Shown: in pieces, positions 7,624 to 28,013 of the stretch
How positions within the stretch are numbered: the first letter of the stretch is position 1
Layout of the letters: every line of letters begins with the position of its first letter
DNA from: Bacillota bacterium
GTDB taxonomy: Bacteria; Bacillota; Clostridia; Lachnospirales; CAG-274
Assembly (NCBI GenBank): GCA_017460805.1
Contig: JAFUAF010000010.1
Span: 1-64,000 of the forward strand
Direction: 5' to 3'
DNA length: 64,000 bases
The notes under the pieces: generated by a model
The model's database searches: none
The model's input: the letters and a program-made list of their open reading frames with translations, nothing else
Told to the model about the DNA's origin: nothing
Translations under genes and position numbers: made by a program

Positions 7624-8646
7624 TTATCTCTGAACACGGCCTGAACCGTCGCAGTTTTCAACTTCTGCTCTTGTAACAAGGTTAAAGTCACCGGGGATGG
7701 TGTGCTTTAATGCAGAAGCAGCAACAGCGAAGTTAAGCGCATCTTCCTTGCTCTTGCCGTCCATAAGACCGCAGATAAGACCGCCTGCAAAAGAGTCGCC
7801 GCCGCCAACACGGTCAACGATAGGCATAATGTCAAATCTGTTTGAACGATAGAAGTCTCTTGTAGCACCGTCCATGATGCAAGCAGACCAACCGTTGTGA
7901 GAAGCGGAGAAGGACTCTCTTAATGAAGAGATAACATACTTGAAGCCGAACTTGTCGCACATCTGATTGAAGATGTCCTTATAGCCTGCCATTTCAAGCT
8001 CGCCGCTTGTTACGTCTGTGTTGCCGGGCTTGAAGCCGAGAACCTTCTCGGCATCTTCTTCGTTGCCGATGCAAACATCAACATACTGCATAAGGTTTGT
8101 CATAACTTTCTGAGCCTTTTCGCTTGACCATAATTTCTTACGGAAGTTAAGGTCACAGGATACAGTAACGCCCTTAGCCTTAGCAGCTTTACAAGCAACC
8201 TCTGTAACCTCGGCAGCCAAATCGGAAACAGCAGGTGTGATACCTGTGAAGTGGAACCAATCAGCGCCCTCGAAGATAGCATCAAAGTCGAACTTGTCAG
8301 CAGTTGCGGTAGCAATAGAAGAATTAGCTCTATCATAAACTACATTGGATGCTCTCATGGAAGCACCTGTCTCAAGGTAGTAGATACCAAGACGATCGCC
8401 TGTCTTTGCGATATGCTTTGTTTCAACGCCATACTTTCTTAAAGCAGCAATAGCGCATGCACCAATAGGGTTATCAGGTACAGCTGTTACAAACTCTGCT
8501 TCGTGACCGTAGTTTGCAAGCGATACAGCAACGTTAGCCTCGCCGCCGCCATAGTTGATGTCAAATTCTGTTGCCTGGATAAATCTTTCATTGCCGGGTG
8601 TGGATAATCTTAACATGATCTCACCCATTGTTACAATCTTGCCCAT
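7624..8646 (-). CDS. kdgK: PfkB-family sugar kinase, probable 2-keto-3-deoxygluconate kinase
   Basis: A 340-residue ribokinase-fold enzyme. Evidence: the N-terminal MGEIMLRLSTPG and NYGGGEANVAVSLANYG signature, the substrate-lid region, and the C-terminal VGGGDSFAGGLICGL with the catalytic Asp. The early GEIMLRL and GNERFIQA pattern is what KDG kinases show, and phosphorylation of KDG is the entry of pectin products into glycolysis. This would agree with the pectate lyase 4 kb away. Another ketose or deoxy-sugar substrate cannot be ruled out. The ribosome site is AAGGAGG, and the gene has its own promoter and terminator. Confidence 0.85.
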   Translation of the reverse strand: MGKIVTMGEIMLRLSTPGNERFIQATEFDINYGGGEANVAVSLANYGHEAEFVTAVPDNPIGACAIAALRKYGVETKHIAKTGDRLGIYYLETGASMRASNVVYDRANSSIATATADKFDFDAIFEGADWFHFTGITPAVSDLAAEVTEVACKAAKAKGVTVSCDLNFRKKLWSSEKAQKVMTNLMQYVDVCIGNEEDAEKVLGFKPGNTDVTSGELEMAGYKDIFNQMCDKFGFKYVISSLRESFSASHNGWSACIMDGATRDFYRSNRFDIMPIVDRVGGGDSFAGGLICGLMDGKSKEDALNFAVAASALKHTIPGDFNLVTRAEVENCDGSGRVQR

Positions 8647-8787: not shown

Positions 8788-9516
8788 TCAGGGCTCCAAA
8801 AAATGCGACTTTTCGGGGTAACTGTATATAAGACCCGTTTCATCTTTCCAATATATGTAAGACACTTTCGGTTTTGTGCCGTAACCGCCATGCCATGTTT
8901 CGGCTTCAAGCTGTATATAATATCCGTCATAATTTCCGTCGTCCAAAAAACCCGCATTTTTAAGCGCAGTTATACTAATACCCGCGTTGTTTTCAACAAA
9001 CCATTTGTCCTGCTCTGCCAAACTGTCTGCGTATGCCTGCGCCGCATTAAAAATTTTTTCCGCTGTTTTATATTCCGCGGTTCCCGTGTAAGATGGTCTC
9101 GGATAAATATTCTTTCTGCCATTTTCGGATGTCCATGTAACGGAGTCTATTTTTCCATCGACTGCATTGATTTTCAAATCCTTGGTATTTGTCTGAAAAT
9201 ACTCTATCGGGTAACTGTCTAACATACCGGCAGCGATAATATCATCAATTTTTATCTCCGACCTGTCTCTCCAAACCTCGTCATTATGCAGTTTTTCCAT
9301 ATATTTATCAGCTGCGTTGTAAATAGCACTTGCTATTAAATACTCCGCATACAGATCGTCGGTATTATCAGTATCCGCCTCTGTATTTTCAACAGTTTGC
9401 TCCGATTCAAATGCACTCTCGTATGACTTTTCGCCTATATCCGCGGCTTGTCTGTAGAAAAATCCTCCCGACATAAATATTAGAGAAACAGCCACAGCAA
9501 TAATTATTCCGTCCAT
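8788..9516 (-). CDS. Membrane-anchored protein with two AAQTY-type repeats
   Basis: A 242-residue protein of unknown function. One hydrophobic segment at residues 1-20 suggests a type II anchor with the rest outside the cell. An acidic linker leads to two repeats of about 85-90 residues, starting near YLIASAIYNAADKYME and KTAEKIFNAAQAYADSL, each closing with a strand like V-W or YIYW followed by Y-P. The same repeat occurs four times in the dockerin protein at 12228. The amphipathic helix plus strands recalls the soluble part of type IV pilin-like proteins, but this is inference. The ribosome site is GGGAGGTG; the leucine-rich-repeat gene ends 12 bases upstream, so the two are likely one operon. 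Confidence 0.75.
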   Translation of the reverse strand: MDGIIIAVAVSLIFMSGGFFYRQAADIGEKSYESAFESEQTVENTEADTDNTDDLYAEYLIASAIYNAADKYMEKLHNDEVWRDRSEIKIDDIIAAGMLDSYPIEYFQTNTKDLKINAVDGKIDSVTWTSENGRKNIYPRPSYTGTAEYKTAEKIFNAAQAYADSLAEQDKWFVENNAGISITALKNAGFLDDGNYDGYYIQLEAETWHGGYGTKPKVSYIYWKDETGLIYSYPEKSHFLEP

Positions 9517-9528
9517 AACACACCTCCC

Positions 9529-12135
9529 TTAATTTTCATTCAGCATCTTTATAACATCCAGCACGGTATATTCTCCGTCAAGGTCGTAATCCAGTTTTGC
9601 GGCGGTATCATAATCGCCCGATTTTACGGTCCTGCTGCCGTCGGCGTATTGAAGCATGGTCTTTGCATCTGTATCTGTCAGTTCCTTATCGCCGTCCATG
9701 TCGCCTATGTACTTATAATTTACACCTCTTTCCGTCACGACACTTTCGGTCTGTGAGCCCTTGTAACAGTAGACATATTCGTTATAGCCAAAATAGCCGA
9801 AAGCTTCATCACCAAAAGTCGTTACAGAATCGGGTATTATCAAAGCCCTCATACTTGAGCCGTAAAATGCCATATTCCCCAAACTTTCCACGCTGTCGGG
9901 GATTGTGACCGTTTTGAGTCTTGATGCAAAAAACGCACCGTAAGCTATGGTTTTTACGGTATTGGGTATCTCGACCTCTTCTATGGGGCAGTAAGCGAAA
10001 ACGCCGCTGTTGAGCACGGTAATGCCATAAGGGATATTTACGGAAGTCAGTTTGCAGTTTCCGAACGCCCACGCGCCCAATGACTGAACGCTGTCGGGGA
10101 TATCCGCCTCAACAAGCGCTTCGCAATGATAAAATGCGCTTGTGCCGATAGAAGTAAGCGTATCGGGGAAAGTGACTTTTACAAGTGCTTTGTCATTTCT
10201 GAAAGTATCGCCGCCTATGCTTTTAACGCCCGTCGGGATAACTATGCTTTTAAGCGCGGCGCAATCCTCAAATGCACCGCCGCCTATAGAATTCAATGTT
10301 TTTGGCATATCCACGCATTCAAGTGCCGCACAGCCCTCAAACGAGCAGAAGCCGATACTTGTGATGCTGTCGGGCAGCGAGACCGCTTTAAGCGCCGCAC
10401 AGTTTCTGAAACAATACATCGGTATGCCTGTCATGCCGCTTGGGATATTTATCGCCAAAAGAGCGGAACAGCCGTCAAAAGCATAAGTACCGAAGCTTGT
10501 CACGGTATTCGGGATATTGATGCTTTCAAGGGCTGAACAGCCGCTGAATGCCTTTGTGCCTATCTGTGTCACATTTCCGTTTATCTTTATGGTTTTTAAG
10601 GCGGTACAGCCCTCAAAAGTCGAATCTCCTATGTTTGTGACTTTTTTGGGTAAAGTAATGCTTTTAAGCGAGGTACAGCCCTTGAATGAAGATGCACCGA
10701 CAAGCCCCACGCTGTCGGCAAGGGTCACGCTTTCAAGCTTTGTACAGTCCGCAAAAGCGCTTGCCGATACCGAACCGACACCGTCTTTTATAACCAAATT
10801 CTTTACATCCGCATTATGCGCCGACCACGGCAAGGTGCCGCTTGGCATAAAGCCCTTGCCGCCTATGGTAAGGGTGGCTGTGGACTCGTCATAAGTCCAG
10901 TCCTCTTCCACGGTTTTCTGTGACTCATAAGTCTTTGGGTCAAGCCAGTATAAGATAGGTGCTGTATTGTCCGTCACATACCAGTACACCCTGCCGTCTC
11001 CCGCAAGTATGGGCTTACACCCTGAAAGAGGGGTCTTTTTCTCTGTCTGTGAGATGATATTTGCGTTTTCGTCTATTTTTACGGCCTTTGTTTTGTAAGT
11101 GCTGCCGTCATTCTCCTCCCACATTACAAGAAATTCGCTCTCGCTTAATTTAATAAGGTAGGGATTTCGCACGCTCACGCCGTTGTCCTTTGTATAATTC
11201 GTCAGCATTTTTACGCTCGGAGTACTCATATCCTTTGGAGCGATGCCGATAAAAATATTTCTTTGGGTGTCGCTGTCAAATGTGGAAATATCCTGCACGA
11301 CCGTATTGCCCGCAACAAGGGCATTATTTTTGCCAAGTTCAAAGCCGCCGACTGCAACACCCGTTGTATTGTCGCCTGTATCGCCGACTATGGCAAGCAC
11401 GGTGCTTCTTGTTACATCACTGTAGCTAAGCTTGCCCGCGCTGTATCTGCTCATAACGACCGAACGCGGATATGCATCGCCGTGGTCTATCGCATAGATA
11501 TAGCTTCCGTCGGTTTGGATAAACTGGTTAAAGCTGTGCGATGCATAAGGCGAATATGGATTTGACGGGCTTTCAAAGCTGTCTATGTCGATTATGAACT
11601 GCATATTGGACTGATGATGCTTGCCGTCCGAAGATTGGAACATCTCGTGGCAGGTATAAAGATAAAGTTTGCCGCCCGCCTCCGTCATACGCGCAGAGCC
11701 CGCATCAAACGGGATATAGGTGTTTGCGCCGTAGATAGAGCACTCTTTTAAAAGCGACCAGTCCTTTGTGTATTTCTGCAATCTTACAACTTCCGCAGAG
11801 CTGTCGTCATTGAGGTTATACTCGCCGAAAACAAGATAATTGTACTTTTCGCCGCTGTAGAACCCGCCGAAAATCGAAAGCGGCGGCGTAATTTCTTTTA
11901 TTGCGGACACAAAGTTTCCCTCATAGTCATATTTCTCCACCACTACTTTTTTATCGGTATACTCCACTCTTTCAAGTGCGCCCGCATTTTCATACAAATT
12001 GGACGTAACGACAAATCCGTACCTTGTGTACTCGTATTCCGTTTTATGTATATTTGCGCTTGAAACGCCCTCTGCCGCAAAAACAGGCAGGCACAGGCAG
12101 ATACAAGCCGCTGCAAGAGCAAAAAATTTTCTCAT
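9529..12135 (-). CDS. Secreted BspA-like leucine-rich-repeat protein with C-terminal dockerin
   Basis: An 868-residue exported protein. A signal peptide (residues 1-20) ends at VFAAEG. Residues 22-400 form a beta-rich region that may be a propeller, with repeated strands describing no known enzyme. Residues about 405-800 are LRR_5 (BspA/TpLRR) repeats of about 23 residues, for example ITLPKKVTNIGDSTFEGCTAL, seen some 16 times. The last 60 residues are a dockerin-like pair (DMDGDKELTDTD and DYDLDGEYTVLD). BspA-type repeats usually serve surface binding. The gene is followed at 12 bases by the AAQTY-repeat membrane protein. Confidence 0.87.
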   Translation of the reverse strand: MRKFFALAAACICLCLPVFAAEGVSSANIHKTEYEYTRYGFVVTSNLYENAGALERVEYTDKKVVVEKYDYEGNFVSAIKEITPPLSIFGGFYSGEKYNYLVFGEYNLNDDSSAEVVRLQKYTKDWSLLKECSIYGANTYIPFDAGSARMTEAGGKLYLYTCHEMFQSSDGKHHQSNMQFIIDIDSFESPSNPYSPYASHSFNQFIQTDGSYIYAIDHGDAYPRSVVMSRYSAGKLSYSDVTRSTVLAIVGDTGDNTTGVAVGGFELGKNNALVAGNTVVQDISTFDSDTQRNIFIGIAPKDMSTPSVKMLTNYTKDNGVSVRNPYLIKLSESEFLVMWEENDGSTYKTKAVKIDENANIISQTEKKTPLSGCKPILAGDGRVYWYVTDNTAPILYWLDPKTYESQKTVEEDWTYDESTATLTIGGKGFMPSGTLPWSAHNADVKNLVIKDGVGSVSASAFADCTKLESVTLADSVGLVGASSFKGCTSLKSITLPKKVTNIGDSTFEGCTALKTIKINGNVTQIGTKAFSGCSALESINIPNTVTSFGTYAFDGCSALLAINIPSGMTGIPMYCFRNCAALKAVSLPDSITSIGFCSFEGCAALECVDMPKTLNSIGGGAFEDCAALKSIVIPTGVKSIGGDTFRNDKALVKVTFPDTLTSIGTSAFYHCEALVEADIPDSVQSLGAWAFGNCKLTSVNIPYGITVLNSGVFAYCPIEEVEIPNTVKTIAYGAFFASRLKTVTIPDSVESLGNMAFYGSSMRALIIPDSVTTFGDEAFGYFGYNEYVYCYKGSQTESVVTERGVNYKYIGDMDGDKELTDTDAKTMLQYADGSRTVKSGDYDTAAKLDYDLDGEYTVLDVIKMLNEN

Positions 12136-12180
12136 TCAAATATCCTCTTTCGCAATATAATTCACGTTAATGTTATAAAA

Positions 12181-12209
12181 ATTATAACACTTTTACGATA
12201 AGATATCAA
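12181..12209 (-). promoter_or_regulatory. Promoter for the leucine-rich-repeat gene
   Basis: TTGATA (12209-12204), 17-base spacer, TATAAT (12186-12181) on the minus strand, about 45 bases before the ATG at 12135. Confidence 0.7.
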
Positions 12210-12227
12210 GAGAGTACTTTGCAAAAT

Positions 12228-13637
12228 TTACTCTTCGGGATATATGTATTTTACACCGTTTTCGTACCAGTAAACATATTGTATCGCGGGTATGTTTTTA
12301 TCCTTTACGGGCACTATTACATAGTATATGGACGACATTTTTGTCAAAAGCTGTGCTTTTACAAGGTCGGGGAGAGTTATAACCATATTATCCGACCATT
12401 GACCCGCCGTGTACATATCCGTAGCGTAGGTCTGTGCCGCAGAAAATACTGTAGAAGCGCCGTTTTTGGCTTCGTCGTGGCTTATCGGGTCGGATGCTGT
12501 AAAAACCGCATAATGACCGCTGCCGTTTGAAAACCACGAAACGCTGTTCACTTTAGGTCCGTACTCATTCATTGCCGTATTCACCGAATAATCAACTATC
12601 GGTTTCTTTGACAGCATACCTGCATTTACAAGGTCTTCATCGGTTATTACTCTATACTCTTCCCATTTTCCCTCATTGTAAAGGTCATAAGCATAAGTCT
12701 GCGCCGCCGCACGTATAACTCCCGCTCCGAACTCCGCATCTTCCCAAGTTTCCATTCCGCTGTTATATGTCTTTTTATAGCCGTCCTCTACCCATGTCAC
12801 ACTTCTTATTGCGGGTGTCAGCGGGTCGCCGCTTGTGATTATAGTATAGTCGATATTCGGGCGGTACAGCAAAAGTTTCGCTTTCAAAAGGTCTTCAACT
12901 GTTATTTCCTCGCTGCCCGTCCATTTTCCCATTGTGTAAAGGTCTGTGACATACGTCTGCGCCGCTGAGTACACATCTATCGGCGAAACATAAGCAATAC
13001 CGTATTCTACATTCCATTCTTTATCATACTCGTCAATTTTGGTCGGATAAACGGTCTTGCCGAACGGGGAATTTTCGCTTTCTTTCTCCACTTTTATAAT
13101 AGCAGGTGTAAGCGCGTTGTCGGTATATATCTTAAAGCCATCATACCTTTGCTTATCGCCTGTCAGAAGCTGTGCGGCAAAAAGGTCGTCAGTGTCCATT
13201 TCAAGACTTGCCTGCCATTTGCCCATTGTATAAAGGTCGGTCGCATAAGTCTGTGCAGCGGAGAATAAGGTCGCGCCCGCCTGCTGTTCCGAGATATAGG
13301 CGTTCATGTTCTCTTCGCCTTTTCTGTTGTACCAGTCGTTATAGGAAGACTCCTCCCACTTGAATTTTATTTTGGGGTCAAGGACTTTCTGCATTATAAG
13401 TGTTGCATCCGATGCCGTTAAAACGTCGTCTCCGTCCACATCCGCTATGTACATATATGAACGGGTCTTTTCTATCGGCATTTTCACCTTTTCGTCAAGT
13501 ACCCTCTGCATAACGATAGCCGCATCCGTCGCTGTCAGATACCCGTCATCATCCACATCGCCTATAGACGGCACCGCCGCATTTACGCTCACCGCACATA
13601 ATAATAAAACCGCAGGTATAAGTATTTTTTTCTTCAT
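12228..13637 (-). CDS. Secreted protein with N-terminal dockerin and four AAQTY repeats
   Basis: A 469-residue exported protein. The start at 13637 has GAGGAAAT upstream; a longer frame to 13673 has none. A signal peptide (1-21) is followed at once by a dockerin (DVDDDGYLTATD and DVDGDDVLTASD, residues about 25-90). Then come four repeats of about 85-95 residues, each starting with a helix such as TLFSAAQTYATDLYTMGKW, then a DL-x-x-A-x-LL helix, and ending in PAI-x-x-V-x-W and Y-P. The repeat is shared with the protein at 8788. A dockerin at the N-terminus is unusual. No enzyme motif is visible; a structural or adhesive role is inferred. Confidence 0.8.
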   Translation of the reverse strand: MKKKILIPAVLLLCAVSVNAAVPSIGDVDDDGYLTATDAAIVMQRVLDEKVKMPIEKTRSYMYIADVDGDDVLTASDATLIMQKVLDPKIKFKWEESSYNDWYNRKGEENMNAYISEQQAGATLFSAAQTYATDLYTMGKWQASLEMDTDDLFAAQLLTGDKQRYDGFKIYTDNALTPAIIKVEKESENSPFGKTVYPTKIDEYDKEWNVEYGIAYVSPIDVYSAAQTYVTDLYTMGKWTGSEEITVEDLLKAKLLLYRPNIDYTIITSGDPLTPAIRSVTWVEDGYKKTYNSGMETWEDAEFGAGVIRAAAQTYAYDLYNEGKWEEYRVITDEDLVNAGMLSKKPIVDYSVNTAMNEYGPKVNSVSWFSNGSGHYAVFTASDPISHDEAKNGASTVFSAAQTYATDMYTAGQWSDNMVITLPDLVKAQLLTKMSSIYYVIVPVKDKNIPAIQYVYWYENGVKYIYPEE

Positions 13638-13722
13638 AATATTTCCTCTTTTCCTAAATTTGTTTCCGTACATATTTTTTATAATTTTATCATATTTTGC
13701 TTTTTGTTACAATATCATTTTT

Positions 13723-14649
13723 TCACCACCCTTCCCTCTTATCAAATTCCCTGAAATCGCTGTCAAGTTTAAAAAACTCATCATCGTAGTTATGGTTAGG
13801 GTCGGGGTCTCTTTTTACACTGTATATCTCGTTTTCGGGGTCGGATAGTTCTATATTTATATAACTCCATGAATCGAGATACCCGTACAGGTCGTTCCCC
13901 TCTTCATCCTCTATCAGAAAACCCCTGCCGTTTTCCACATCATTCCCCACAAGATAATGTCCCTTTTTCCCAACGGGAACACGCGGATAAACACGGGTAT
14001 CAAAGATGCCGTTATCATATACGCCTTTTTGTACGTATCTTCTTACAAATTTTCTTTCAAACCCCGTATATAATGTTATATATACACCGTTTTCGGGCTG
14101 TTTGCCGTGGTCTTTGATATATTTGTACACATCATCTATCGGGTTTCCGTCCGTATCGTAATATTCGGTCAATTCGGTATTTGCAGGGTCTTTCAATAAA
14201 TTTTTCTTTTGGTCGGACTTTGCGATAATATGAAGATCGTCGAATTTTATACAGTAATAATCGGGGCTGATATCCGAATCATCACAAAATTTATAAAGAT
14301 CCTTATTCATAAGATACCTCTCGTTTTCGTCAAATACCGCATATATTCCTTTATCCTTGTCAAGCGCATATATACTGCCTTTTACCGAATAAAGTGTTAT
14401 CCCTTTTTTATCTTCGATAGTTGATTTATAATTATCCCTGTTTTTAATATACTGTCCCGTATTACCGACAGCAAAAGCACCGTTAATATTAGTCCGCGGC
14501 TCGCTGTCGTTTTCATGTTCAACCGCTGTCGTTTCAATAATTGAAGCCGTGGTCTCCTCCGTATACTCTGCGTTTTTCGGCTCTGTGTCCTGCGTTTTTT
14601 CACCGCACCCGACAAGCAGCAGCAAAAATATAAATAAAATTTTCCTCAT
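13723..14649 (-). CDS. Lipoprotein with GHYLVG-type modules
   Basis: A 308-residue probable lipoprotein: MRKILFIFLLLLVGCG has a lipobox-like LVGC at residues 12-15, followed by a Thr/Glu-rich linker. One complete module (about 55-205) and one half module (about 220-308) follow. The module runs from VG-x-x-GHY through GFLIEDE-GNDLYG, DPENEIYSV, YLMN-D, CIKFDDL and YYDTDGN to PENGVY. It shares this with the proteins at 14649, 16920 and 17905. Its ATG shares one base with the stop of the gene before it, and AAGGAGGA precedes it, so it is the last gene of a four-gene operon. Function unknown. Confidence 0.75.
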   Translation of the reverse strand: MRKILFIFLLLLVGCGEKTQDTEPKNAEYTEETTASIIETTAVEHENDSEPRTNINGAFAVGNTGQYIKNRDNYKSTIEDKKGITLYSVKGSIYALDKDKGIYAVFDENERYLMNKDLYKFCDDSDISPDYYCIKFDDLHIIAKSDQKKNLLKDPANTELTEYYDTDGNPIDDVYKYIKDHGKQPENGVYITLYTGFERKFVRRYVQKGVYDNGIFDTRVYPRVPVGKKGHYLVGNDVENGRGFLIEDEEGNDLYGYLDSWSYINIELSDPENEIYSVKRDPDPNHNYDDEFFKLDSDFREFDKREGW

Positions 14650-15932
14650 TATTTGTCCTCCTTTTTTGTACTTACCAATAAATGTCTTTTAATATTTACG
14701 GCGGCTATGCCCAAAAGAACGGCCATGCAAACAATAATGCCTATCACGGAATATACGGGGAAGCCGTCGGGCAAAATCACATCAGGCTTCATACGGGCAA
14801 GCATTTCCCGTTTTGCGCGTTCCTTTGCCTTGGCTTTTGCTGCCTCGTCCGCCTGTGCTTTCGGCACTATTTCTCCATCCCACAGCGCAAGCCCTCGCTC
14901 TGCAAGAAAGCTGTCTATATCCTCTATCTCTGTCCCGTCCGCAAGAAAATAATGCCAATTAAAAACAAAGTTCGAGTGATCGTTGACCAATGTATAAATT
15001 TTTAAATCGCCGTATTTAAGACAGCCCGCTTTAGGCGGACAGTCCTTACCGAATTTTTTAAAATCGCCGTTCATAAGATAATGTACCGAGTATTCATCAC
15101 CTTTTACATTATATGATGATACATAATACACCTCTTCCTCGCTGTCCAGCAGTCTTATACCCATTTCATAACCGCCGCAGAACAAGTCCGTACCGTCCTC
15201 GGCCTCTATCACACATCCCGTGTCACTTACTTTGCTGCCATTGCTTACAAACCAATGCCCTTTAGTTCCGACGGACTGCCTTACGCCGATCGACATATCA
15301 TAAAAAGGATCGGGTCTGCCGACAATGCCTTCCAAAGGCAAAAACTGCTTGTCCATACCGTAGTAACTGCTGTAATAAACACCGTTTCCGCCGCCTTTTC
15401 CGCGGCTGTTTATGTAAGAATAAATATCTTCTATTTCCCCGCCATCGGTATCATAATAGCGAGTAACATCTGTTTTTGTCGGGTCGCAATTATAATTTTT
15501 ATCATAGTCCGTGACTGCAATGACCGCAAAATCATCAAAATCTATACAAATATAACGCGGATTTTCCCAAGCATTAAGCGCAAACTCCCGCATATTGCCG
15601 CTAAGCAAACCTTTTTGCGTGTCGTCGGGGTTCATAAGTATGTATATTTCATACTCTTCACTTAAAACTATAAAATACCCGTCCAACCAATATAAGTCAT
15701 TGCCGTCCTTGTCCTCTATCCACGACCCCTCGTCATATCTGTCGGGGTCGTCCGAATGTTCAAGCCAATAACCCCAGCTGTCTATCATATAATGACCCGT
15801 ACCGCCGACTTCCTCGCGTGGATAATGCGTGTGTTTTTCGTTTTCGTACTTATCCAACACTCCGCGCTTATTCCCCGCATAAACAGGCACCGTAAATAAT
15901 GTAATTAAAAGCAAGATCAGTATTTTTTTCAT
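14649..15932 (-). CDS. Exported, C-terminally anchored protein with two GHYLVG modules
   Basis: A 427-residue protein of unknown function. A signal peptide (1-19, ending VYAG) is followed by two modules at about 38-190 and 205-355. Landmarks are GGTGHYMIDS, IEDKDGNDLYW, YYDTDGGEIEDIYSYI and GVYYSSYYGM in the first, and GTKGHWFVSN, YLMNGDFKKFG in the second. A charged, Ala/Lys-rich helix (about 365-385) leads to one membrane segment near 400-420 and a short basic tail. The gene overlaps both neighbours by one and four bases, so translation is coupled. It probably displays its modules on the outer face of the membrane. Confidence 0.75.
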   Translation of the reverse strand: MKKILILLLITLFTVPVYAGNKRGVLDKYENEKHTHYPREEVGGTGHYMIDSWGYWLEHSDDPDRYDEGSWIEDKDGNDLYWLDGYFIVLSEEYEIYILMNPDDTQKGLLSGNMREFALNAWENPRYICIDFDDFAVIAVTDYDKNYNCDPTKTDVTRYYDTDGGEIEDIYSYINSRGKGGGNGVYYSSYYGMDKQFLPLEGIVGRPDPFYDMSIGVRQSVGTKGHWFVSNGSKVSDTGCVIEAEDGTDLFCGGYEMGIRLLDSEEEVYYVSSYNVKGDEYSVHYLMNGDFKKFGKDCPPKAGCLKYGDLKIYTLVNDHSNFVFNWHYFLADGTEIEDIDSFLAERGLALWDGEIVPKAQADEAAKAKAKERAKREMLARMKPDVILPDGFPVYSVIGIIVCMAVLLGIAAVNIKRHLLVSTKKEDK

Positions 15933-25346: not shown

Positions 25347-28013
25347 TTATACCTCGGCTTTCTTTTTTTGATTTTTTCGCATATAAAAGCAAATCAGCAG
25401 TATAATAAGCGTACACAGACTGATGCAGCCGCCACTTATTATGCCCGGAGTAATATATTTTATTGCGATATCGTGTTTGCCCGCAGGTACCTCAAAGCAT
25501 AAAAACGTACCGAAAGCGGAAGTCTTGTCCGTCTTTTTGCCGTCTATATACACATCAAAGCCGTCGCTGTATGCAAGGGTGGTAAAAATCAGTCTGTTTT
25601 TGTCAAAATCTGTCTGTGCCCTTATAACGCCGCGGTCGTTTGCTATATTTTGCGGTGCGTTTTCATTTACGGTCTTTGATATATTTTCAAAAACCTGCCT
25701 GTCCAGTCTGTAAATTCTCAAAGGTCTGCATACTACCCCGTTTACAAGTGCCGTCACTTCCACGGATATCGTATCTCCCTTTTCAAGGTGCCCGAGATCC
25801 CTTACTGTGTCGTTTTTCTGAAAATCAAAATCGAGATACTGTCCGTTTACCATAACAACATAGCGTATACCCTGCACTTGTACGCTGTTGTTAAAATATA
25901 TGTCTGCGGTGTAATCGCCGTCCTCTTCGATTTTTGTTTCATAGCTTATTATTCCCGTTTCGTCCTTTGTTTGAGCCGCAGCGGCACCCGACGGCAAATT
26001 ATCGAGTATTATCATATCCTCGCCGTCCGGTGTGGTCTCAAAATGGCAGTTTCTTAACACTGGTGCGCCCGCATCTATTTCCTCGTACAATTTTTCGTCT
26101 GTACCGCAGACCGCATTTAAAAACATCTGTGTATCATTGAAAGAGTCGCCCGGGCCGCCTCCGAATTTTTCCGCAATATCAAGCACTTCCGTCTCTGCCG
26201 CAAACATCAGGGGAAATGCAAGTTTGTTTTTATATATCCCGATATCCTCATCCATATATATCTTTTCGTAAATATCACTGTTGAGCCTTGCCCCGTTCGG
26301 CACGTACATCATTCTGCCGTTGCTGTCCTCAAAACTTGTACTTTTGTCGGTAGCATAGACATATTTAATATTAAAGATACTTTCGTTTACCGCACTGTTA
26401 TCCGAATTATAGACGGTACGACCGTCACTTACTCCCCTTGCACCCATTGCACGGGCAAAATTAGAGGCATACTGATTTGTCGAGGACAGAAACGTAGAAA
26501 TAGAGTTATATCCTGCGCTCAGCTGAAACAGCAAATTGCTGTTGCATACATCTGCCGCACGATAAAATCCGCCGTCGATCTTATCCGTTATGCTTACTGC
26601 CTTTTGCGTATTGGCAAGCTGCTTTTCGTATTGCGTATACGGCGCATAGTCCATATATCTTACCGAAACAAACATACCGGTAAACATGCACATAAAAGCC
26701 TCTGCCGCCGCAAAAAAGCCCATTATGCTTTTTTTCTTTTCCGATACCGAAAAAAATGTATACAAAACCGCAAGCACAGCCACAACAAAACCGCATACAA
26801 GATAATACCCGTTCATAAAATGTGAAAGAGCTGCCGCAAGTGCCAAAAGCAGCACAAGCAAAGGCACAAATTTTGTCCTTTTACCCATTTTTATATCAAG
26901 CGTAACGCTTCTTGCGGCAAATATCATACAGAAAAAAGCCATGATGTAAGCATAACGGCAGTCAAATCCCGTTGGCATGCGAAACGCATGGAAGGCCTTG
27001 TATAACGGTGTTAATAAAAGTGACAAAATGCCAAGCAGACATATGCACGCCGCAGCCGCACGCTCTTTCTTTCCCGTCTTTGGCGAAATAATAAGACAAA
27101 TGGTCAGAAACTGCGGCAGTATCCCGTAAAAGACAGCAGGAAACGCCGTAAAAGATGACAATCCGTCCGCAACAAAAAGCAGACTTCGGCAAATTTCAGG
27201 AATACTGTAGTTTATAACTCTGTTTTGAGAGCCGAAGACCTGTGTGTAACCGTTTTTCAGAACATTGTACTCCGGCAAAAGAATAACTGCCGCAAGCAAA
27301 GCCGAAGCCGCAGCCGAAAGCATAAGTTTAAGCGAAGCAGCGGCTGTCTCTTTTTTGTTTTTTCCGCATACCGCCGCATAATAAAGCGCATAAATAAAAC
27401 ACGCGATCCCTGTCATATACGAAGTATACCAATAATCATTGTACACACTTATCGTATATACCGCAAGAAACGGCCAAATGCTCTTTTTTTCATATATCGT
27501 TTCGGTACAGAGCAGGCAAAGCGGAAGGATCGCGGAGGCATTAAGATAAAAAATATTAATACTGCATGCCACATTAAACATACAAAGTGCATACATACAC
27601 GAAAGCCCCGTTATCCACACACCCCGCATTTTTATCATTCTGCTGTGCAGGAAAAATATGCAGGCACAGAGTCCGCAAAGTCCTATCCTTAAAATATAAC
27701 CCGCAATATAAGCAAAATGATAGTATTTTATCGGCAAAGCCAGAAACAGAAGATTTATAATGTTGAAATATGCGGGCAGCATTATAAACCAATCAGCGCC
27801 AAACCCCGCCTTATATGTATACATAAGGCTTTCGCCTTTTTTTATCTTATAAACGGTCTCGGCGATAACGTTTATATACTGGTCTTTAAGATCCGATGCA
27901 AAAATACTTCTGTCTGCTGACGGATACATAAAAATCAGCATTACAACTGCCGTGAATATCATCGGCAGCAATGCCGAAAGTATATAAATTCTTTTATTGT
28001 TCATTTCTTTCAT
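25347..28013 (-). CDS. YfhO-family polytopic membrane protein
   Basis: An 888-residue protein with about 12 membrane segments in residues 1-470, a large extracytoplasmic beta-rich part (480-845), and a last membrane segment at about 858-880. Early SDLKDQY, then GFGADWF and the YFNIINLL region, are usual for YfhO-like proteins, which belong with GT-C glycosyltransferase folds; in Bacillus and Listeria relatives they add sugars to lipoteichoic or wall polymers. GGAGG of the ribosome site lies in the end of recQ, three bases away, so both are one transcription unit. The exact sugar donor and acceptor are unknown. Confidence 0.85.
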   Translation of the reverse strand: MKEMNNKRIYILSALLPMIFTAVVMLIFMYPSADRSIFASDLKDQYINVIAETVYKIKKGESLMYTYKAGFGADWFIMLPAYFNIINLLFLALPIKYYHFAYIAGYILRIGLCGLCACIFFLHSRMIKMRGVWITGLSCMYALCMFNVACSINIFYLNASAILPLCLLCTETIYEKKSIWPFLAVYTISVYNDYWYTSYMTGIACFIYALYYAAVCGKNKKETAAASLKLMLSAAASALLAAVILLPEYNVLKNGYTQVFGSQNRVINYSIPEICRSLLFVADGLSSFTAFPAVFYGILPQFLTICLIISPKTGKKERAAAACICLLGILSLLLTPLYKAFHAFRMPTGFDCRYAYIMAFFCMIFAARSVTLDIKMGKRTKFVPLLVLLLALAAALSHFMNGYYLVCGFVVAVLAVLYTFFSVSEKKKSIMGFFAAAEAFMCMFTGMFVSVRYMDYAPYTQYEKQLANTQKAVSITDKIDGGFYRAADVCNSNLLFQLSAGYNSISTFLSSTNQYASNFARAMGARGVSDGRTVYNSDNSAVNESIFNIKYVYATDKSTSFEDSNGRMMYVPNGARLNSDIYEKIYMDEDIGIYKNKLAFPLMFAAETEVLDIAEKFGGGPGDSFNDTQMFLNAVCGTDEKLYEEIDAGAPVLRNCHFETTPDGEDMIILDNLPSGAAAAQTKDETGIISYETKIEEDGDYTADIYFNNSVQVQGIRYVVMVNGQYLDFDFQKNDTVRDLGHLEKGDTISVEVTALVNGVVCRPLRIYRLDRQVFENISKTVNENAPQNIANDRGVIRAQTDFDKNRLIFTTLAYSDGFDVYIDGKKTDKTSAFGTFLCFEVPAGKHDIAIKYITPGIISGGCISLCTLIILLICFYMRKNQKKKAEV

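Follow-up and report, generated by a model that had tools for sequence, protein, structure and literature searches.

The 64,000-nucleotide window analysed here (positions 1 to 64,000, forward strand, of contig JAFUAF010000010.1, assembly GCA_017460805.1) belongs to a Bacillota bacterium of the order Lachnospirales (lineage CAG-274). Two of its genes, designated below by their lowest coordinate, code for proteins sharing a repeated domain: the 12228 protein, in which four tandem copies follow a dockerin, and the 8788 protein, in which two copies follow a putative membrane anchor. The sequence comparisons reported here indicate that this domain is homologous to the head of type IV pilins. The features of the two genes are listed below, with their supporting evidence in brackets.

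12228..13637 (-): predicted secreted protein with a Sec signal peptide, a dockerin and four tandem pilin-head domains (sequence, Pfam, pilin-only profile)
13575..13637 (-): probable Sec signal peptide, MKKKILIPAVLLLCAVSVNAA (read from the sequence)
13380..13562 (-): type I dockerin with two calcium-binding loops, DVDDDGYLTATD and DVDGDDVLTASD (Pfam Dockerin_1 and loop pattern)
13038..13295 (-): pilin-head repeat 1 (alignment, pilin-only profile, tree)
12756..12998 (-): pilin-head repeat 2 (alignment, pilin-only profile, tree)
12492..12743 (-): pilin-head repeat 3 (alignment, pilin-only profile)
12231..12476 (-): pilin-head repeat 4 (alignment, pilin-only profile, single-repeat model)
8788..9516 (-): protein with a hydrophobic N-terminal putative anchor, an acidic linker and two pilin-head domains (sequence, Pfam, pilin-only profile)
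9094..9351 (-): pilin-head domain M1 (alignment, pilin-only profile)
8809..9081 (-): pilin-head domain M2 (alignment, pilin-only profile)

The ATG start codon of the 12228 gene is at position 13637, position 13673 being the start of the longest open reading frame. Its dockerin scored 31.1 bits with Pfam Dockerin_1 (cut-off 22.9), and the residues of both calcium-binding loops are present. The six units can be aligned over about 85 residues and share conserved positions (AA, Y, W, A and L). Neither protein has a Pfam N_methyl match that would point to a prepilin motif.

The source genome (2.99 Mb in 78 contigs, 96.6% complete) was searched with the 12228 protein, which retrieved, apart from itself, numerous dockerins, two short genes and the 8788 gene. 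One of the short genes (L002:1459-1860) codes for a classical 133-residue type IV pilin (MLKNLQAKLKDQKG/FSLVELIVVIAIMVILIAMLVPNVVGYIKK...), recognised by Pfam N_methyl (34.3 bits) and by the NCBIfam model of the prepilin domain (27.2 bits, above the cut-off), with GspG and ComGC scores below their cut-offs. The head of this pilin is closest to repeat 4, with 61% identity over 67 amino acids (BLAST E 6e-22). When the pilins of relatives were aligned with the repeats, the homology was found to begin directly after alpha1-N, the hydrophobic first part of helix 1, and each unit thus corresponds to a pilin minus its polymerising stem. In the same alignment, the window proteins displayed no hydrophobic alpha1-N fused to their heads.

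To avoid circularity, a profile was trained on pilin heads with no repeat in the training set, and was run against all 708 window frames of at least 40 amino acids, together with reversed decoys. Across the 64-kb window it detected exactly six domains: the 12228 protein has four of them (whole-protein E 9e-81) and the 8788 protein the other two (1e-10). The next best hit was a reversed decoy (0.59). These are the six aligned units, and the initial annotation was therefore right in describing a repeat common to a dockerin protein and a membrane-anchored protein. An already named tandem domain, which would have refuted its proposal, was rejected here: the repeat falls under no model in Pfam or NCBIfam, and a PDB sequence search returned only a chance hit to ribosomal protein L4 (E 1.1). 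Judged from its sequence, the repeat is a homologue of the type IV pilin head, beyond mere resemblance. The earlier idea, namely that a soluble fold like that of pilins is repeated in tandem and lacks the pilin N-terminus, thus takes a stronger form than first claimed, with a bona fide pilin of the same genome as homologue. The resulting anatomy, a dockerin protein that bears stemless pilin heads in tandem and is conserved in the genus, is in our view almost certain.

Structural models gave a more nuanced picture. Repeat 4 was modelled by AlphaFold2 (AF2) together with 23 related heads, with a mean predicted local distance difference test score (pLDDT) of 95.9. The predicted domain comprises a long helix (residues 2-23), a short helix (35-40) and three strands (53-56, 65-72 and 75-79), in agreement with the helix-then-sheet order initially proposed. 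Comparison of this single repeat with known pilins was only partly successful: the order of the elements was right, but the isolated head retrieved no pilins, a Foldseek search against the PDB giving no credible match, which counts against a pilin fold; for a small isolated domain, the tool warns that such a miss is not evidence of a fold difference. A model of a relative's complete mature pilin was also made (pLDDT 89.5), and Foldseek ranked PAK pilin first, but only with an E-value of 2.8. With VIA-align, pilins and pseudopilins filled the top seven places (Z 3.6-6.0) over the whole length of the model, head included; these comprised the XcpGHIJK (XcpT-type) pseudopilus, which was the best match (Z 6.0, 101 residues), as well as PAK pilin, FimA, TcpA and PilE. 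These Z values are modest and come partly from the long helix, so that sequence homology to true pilins is the main basis for assigning the repeat to this fold. A link between the repeat and the pilin fold is supported by this homology together with the full-length pilin model.

The array does not have the marks of a recent expansion. Where two repeats, or a repeat and the pilin, have the same residue, codon identity was close to the codon-usage expectation, as illustrated by repeat 4 and the pilin, which use the same codon at 15 of 42 conserved residues (15.1 expected). As the codon match is no higher than codon usage predicts, the similarity is held at the protein level. In a tree of the heads, the first repeats of four species clustered together, as did the second repeats of three, this species included in both cases, with moderate support (87/80 and 96/84) and many other forks unresolved. 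This position-wise grouping and the saturated synonymous sites indicate that the array is old and its protein sequence under purifying selection; a recent tandem duplication or gene conversion of the repeats was ruled out by the same two observations. A different pattern was observed in neighbouring duplicate pilin genes of two species (L063:2677-4086 and L066:858-2167), whose heads share the same codons at 76 of 79 and 82 of 83 positions, unlike all other head pairs; judging by these codons, this is a case of recent duplication or gene conversion.

Database searches were extended to the family (48 genomes), the order (392) and the class (391), and heads were found only in the genus itself, plus one pilin elsewhere. 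At the family level, they occurred in 6 of 6 genomes of the genus and in 0 of 42 others. Among the 391 class-level genomes, searched with a head profile devoid of alpha1-N, a single genome outside the genus was matched, by a type IV pilin of another family in which the head directly follows GFTLVELIVVLVILAVLAAMLVPALTGYIKRA. Thus, the search for further tandem arrays suggested in the initial annotation was fruitful within the genus, and yielded only this one pilin beyond it. In other genera the pilin heads have different sequences, and analogous arrays built from these pilins may exist. Two further head proteins were noticed during these searches. One is a pilin-like protein with a head and a degenerate prepilin motif, GGFALIGLIV, lacking Glu5 (L068:1739-2152). 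In the other, a pilin head is followed by what appears by eye to be a copper-amine-oxidase-N-type domain, the protein being truncated by the contig end (L072:1-522).

Arrays resembling the 12228 protein were identified in three genomes of the genus, two complete and one truncated. Those of G034 and G031 display a signal peptide, a dockerin and five or three heads, respectively, while that of G033 has four heads and lost its N-terminus at a contig end. These relatives are rumen-type, metagenome-assembled, uncultured Eubacteriaceae/Bacillota, two of the bins being labelled sheep rumen and water deer abomasum. Head number thus ranges from 3 to 5 across species, as in spacer arrays, and the pilin head could be regarded as a rigid bead that extends the protein from the cell and binds no ligand. 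We give this structural role little credence: the AAQTYATDLY, KW, PAI and YP motifs are kept at the protein level with saturated codons, although fold constraint alone could suffice, and, with the dockerin N-terminal and nothing beyond the heads, there is no module to space out.

The two head genes are separated by a third gene, as described in the initial annotation, and two further features can be added to the locus:

9529..12135 (-): LRR_5 (BspA-type) protein with a C-terminal dockerin-like segment (Pfam LRR_5 E 2e-93; dockerin-like end by sequence only)
12181..12209 (-): candidate sigma-70-like promoter TTGATA-17-TATAAT, with TG before the -10 (11/12, consensus match only)

This candidate promoter lies upstream of the pair formed by the leucine-rich repeat (LRR) gene and the 8788 gene, the latter beginning 12 nt past the LRR gene stop with a GGAGG ribosome-binding site. 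The claim that the LRR protein also carries a dockerin was upheld in part, a dockerin-like pair of Asp-rich loops being visible by eye at its C-terminus, but the Pfam scan reported no dockerin there. In this respect G031 (L062) resembles the window: an LRR_5 protein with a weak C-terminal dockerin match is located there too between kdgK and the array gene. The KDG kinases next to the two arrays (window 7624-8646, (-); L062:5992-7056) are 100% identical in protein and about 91% in DNA, whereas the neighbouring array proteins of the same two species are about 46% identical. Upstream of the 12228 gene, at 13723-15932 (-), two consecutive proteins, secreted or membrane-bound and lacking a Pfam family, share the motif GxxGHYxV...EDxxGNDLY and form an unnamed paralogous set.

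The source genome also encodes other dockerin proteins, cohesin-like domains and pilus components. About two dozen other dockerin matches were detected, including a pectate lyase and a Cthe_2159-type carbohydrate-binding protein, and the loops of the array dockerin resemble those of the other dockerins (TAxDA), which makes a common cohesin partner plausible. Candidates for this partner are the cohesin-like domains of two SLH proteins, which scored 24.8 and 19.1 bits for a cut-off of 24.1. Type IV pilus machinery is represented by PilB and PilT (T2SSE family), by PilM-, PilN- and PilO-like genes, and by several pilins. In a pilus gene cluster, an 810-residue protein with a prepilin N-terminus and a long extracellular part (L026:6383-8815) is probably a large, modular minor pilin. 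Both pilin genes of contig C57 adjoin large YfhO-like membrane proteins recognised by eye (L011:2099-5169 and L028:3051-5982), and a confirmed YfhO protein is encoded in the window at 25347-28013.

The coexistence of pili and a cohesin system in one genome, the parallel existence of membrane-anchored heads, and the closeness of the heads to the pilin of the same genus raise the question of a pilus-surface adaptor. The tandem heads would contact the cell's own pili or their tip, the dockerin protein coupling retractile pili to the cohesin scaffold or acting as a decoy for pilus-binding partners. Yet the repeats lack the first half of the N-terminal helix, the main contact between known filament subunits, and the head genes are not co-located with the pilus operon, so that we consider this explanation unlikely. 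The subunits of known filaments are held together mainly by this helix, packed in the core (PMC10628169).

Another set of head genes points to the cell wall. At L012:3874-7897 of the source genome, a one-head and a three-head protein, both membrane-anchored and devoid of a prepilin motif, are encoded directly between csaB and a WecB/TagA/CpsF-like gene, a placement that suggests a cell-wall-related use of the pilin-head module. CsaB is a surface-polymer pyruvyl transferase, and SLH domains typically bind CsaB-pyruvylated polymers. The heads might accordingly bind a secondary cell-wall polysaccharide and aid the attachment or assembly of the surface layer rather than adhesion to fibre; with the dockerin arrays lying elsewhere in the genome, this is rather improbable as an explanation for the array. 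A larger relative of the csaB-adjacent set is carried by G034 (L064:1831-4470), where five adjacent non-prepilin, membrane-anchored head genes, four one-head and one three-head, are read as a local family expansion.

We lean slightly towards a composite reading in which the 12228 protein acts in adhesion as a multivalent carrier of pilin heads that docks to a cohesin at the surface. The head of the genus's own type IV pilin would have been severed just past the filament-forming hydrophobic portion of helix 1 and multiplied into a tandem array. Without the prepilin signal and alpha1-N, and from what is known of the family, such units would not enter a pilus by a known route. The 12228 protein would instead be exported via its Sec signal peptide, and its dockerin would plug into a surface cohesin, such as those of the two SLH proteins. 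This would display three to five heads per protein, four of them in this species, either on a cellulosome-like complex or at the cell surface. The 8788 protein would display two heads from a membrane anchor. More tentatively, the heads may still be binding modules, most likely adhesive ones for plant polysaccharide or for a partner that the pili recognise too, and their repetition may provide avidity.

Studies of rumen bacteria bear on this proposal in both directions. Ruminococcus albus type IV pili bind cellulose (PMC6916266), and a pilin of R. flavefaciens was Avicel-induced and found on cotton (PMC3672088). Several points weigh on the other side: binding of cellulose by the R. albus major pilin or its head itself is not established (PMC6916266), and cellulose did not induce the pilin genes of R. 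albus 7 (PMC4300822). Both cohesin matches are also weak, one barely above the cut-off and the other below, and no positive residue precedes the N-terminal hydrophobic stretch of the 8788 protein, whose membrane anchoring and topology are putative and unproven. A wider scenario, which we put forward tentatively and which may well prove wrong, is that the genus turned its pilin head into a reusable binding module off the pilus, multiplied it and displayed it via a dockerin on a cellulosome-like complex and via membrane anchors, so that pilus-type adhesion would be built into the fibre-degrading complex.

Several known systems can be compared with this organization. The heads share with type IV pilins (major pilin, GspG/XcpT pseudopilins) a homologous head with alpha1-C, a short helix and antiparallel strands. 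In contrast to these, the window proteins have no prepilin leader, Phe1/Glu5 or alpha1-N, carry several heads per chain, and are predicted to be Sec-exported or anchored by another transmembrane segment. Clostridioides difficile PilJ also combines two pilin folds in one chain, but it still enters the pilus (PMC9556784); here, the pilin stem and the prepilin motif are missing, and 2-5 units are fused to a dockerin or a membrane anchor. As in the modular pilins PilB and PilC of Streptococcus sanguinis, a pilin module is joined to other modules; in these, the N-terminal pilin is the carrier and the foreign module the cargo (PMC8179133), whereas here the head is the cargo and the dockerin or anchor the carrier, an inversion of the known modular-pilin design. 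Ruminococcal cellulosome dockerin proteins have a comparable architecture, with a signal peptide, a dockerin and non-catalytic modules, including LRR, and cohesins in the genome (PMC4081043). The difference lies in the nature of the non-catalytic modules, here pilin heads, and the word "pilin" is absent from the text of that survey (PMC4081043). In the open-access literature, which omits most subscription journals, no earlier description of a dockerin protein bearing pilin heads was found, the most relevant of the papers that mention both pilin and dockerin included, and the combination of tandem pilin heads with a dockerin appears new to the literature.

Type IV pili and cellulosomes are two leading proposals for fibre attachment by rumen Firmicutes, and this combination could connect these two known ways of gripping plant fibre. 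As a soluble, multivalent and secreted product, the head array would also make the question of pilin-cellulose binding (PMC6916266) directly testable without an insoluble pilus.
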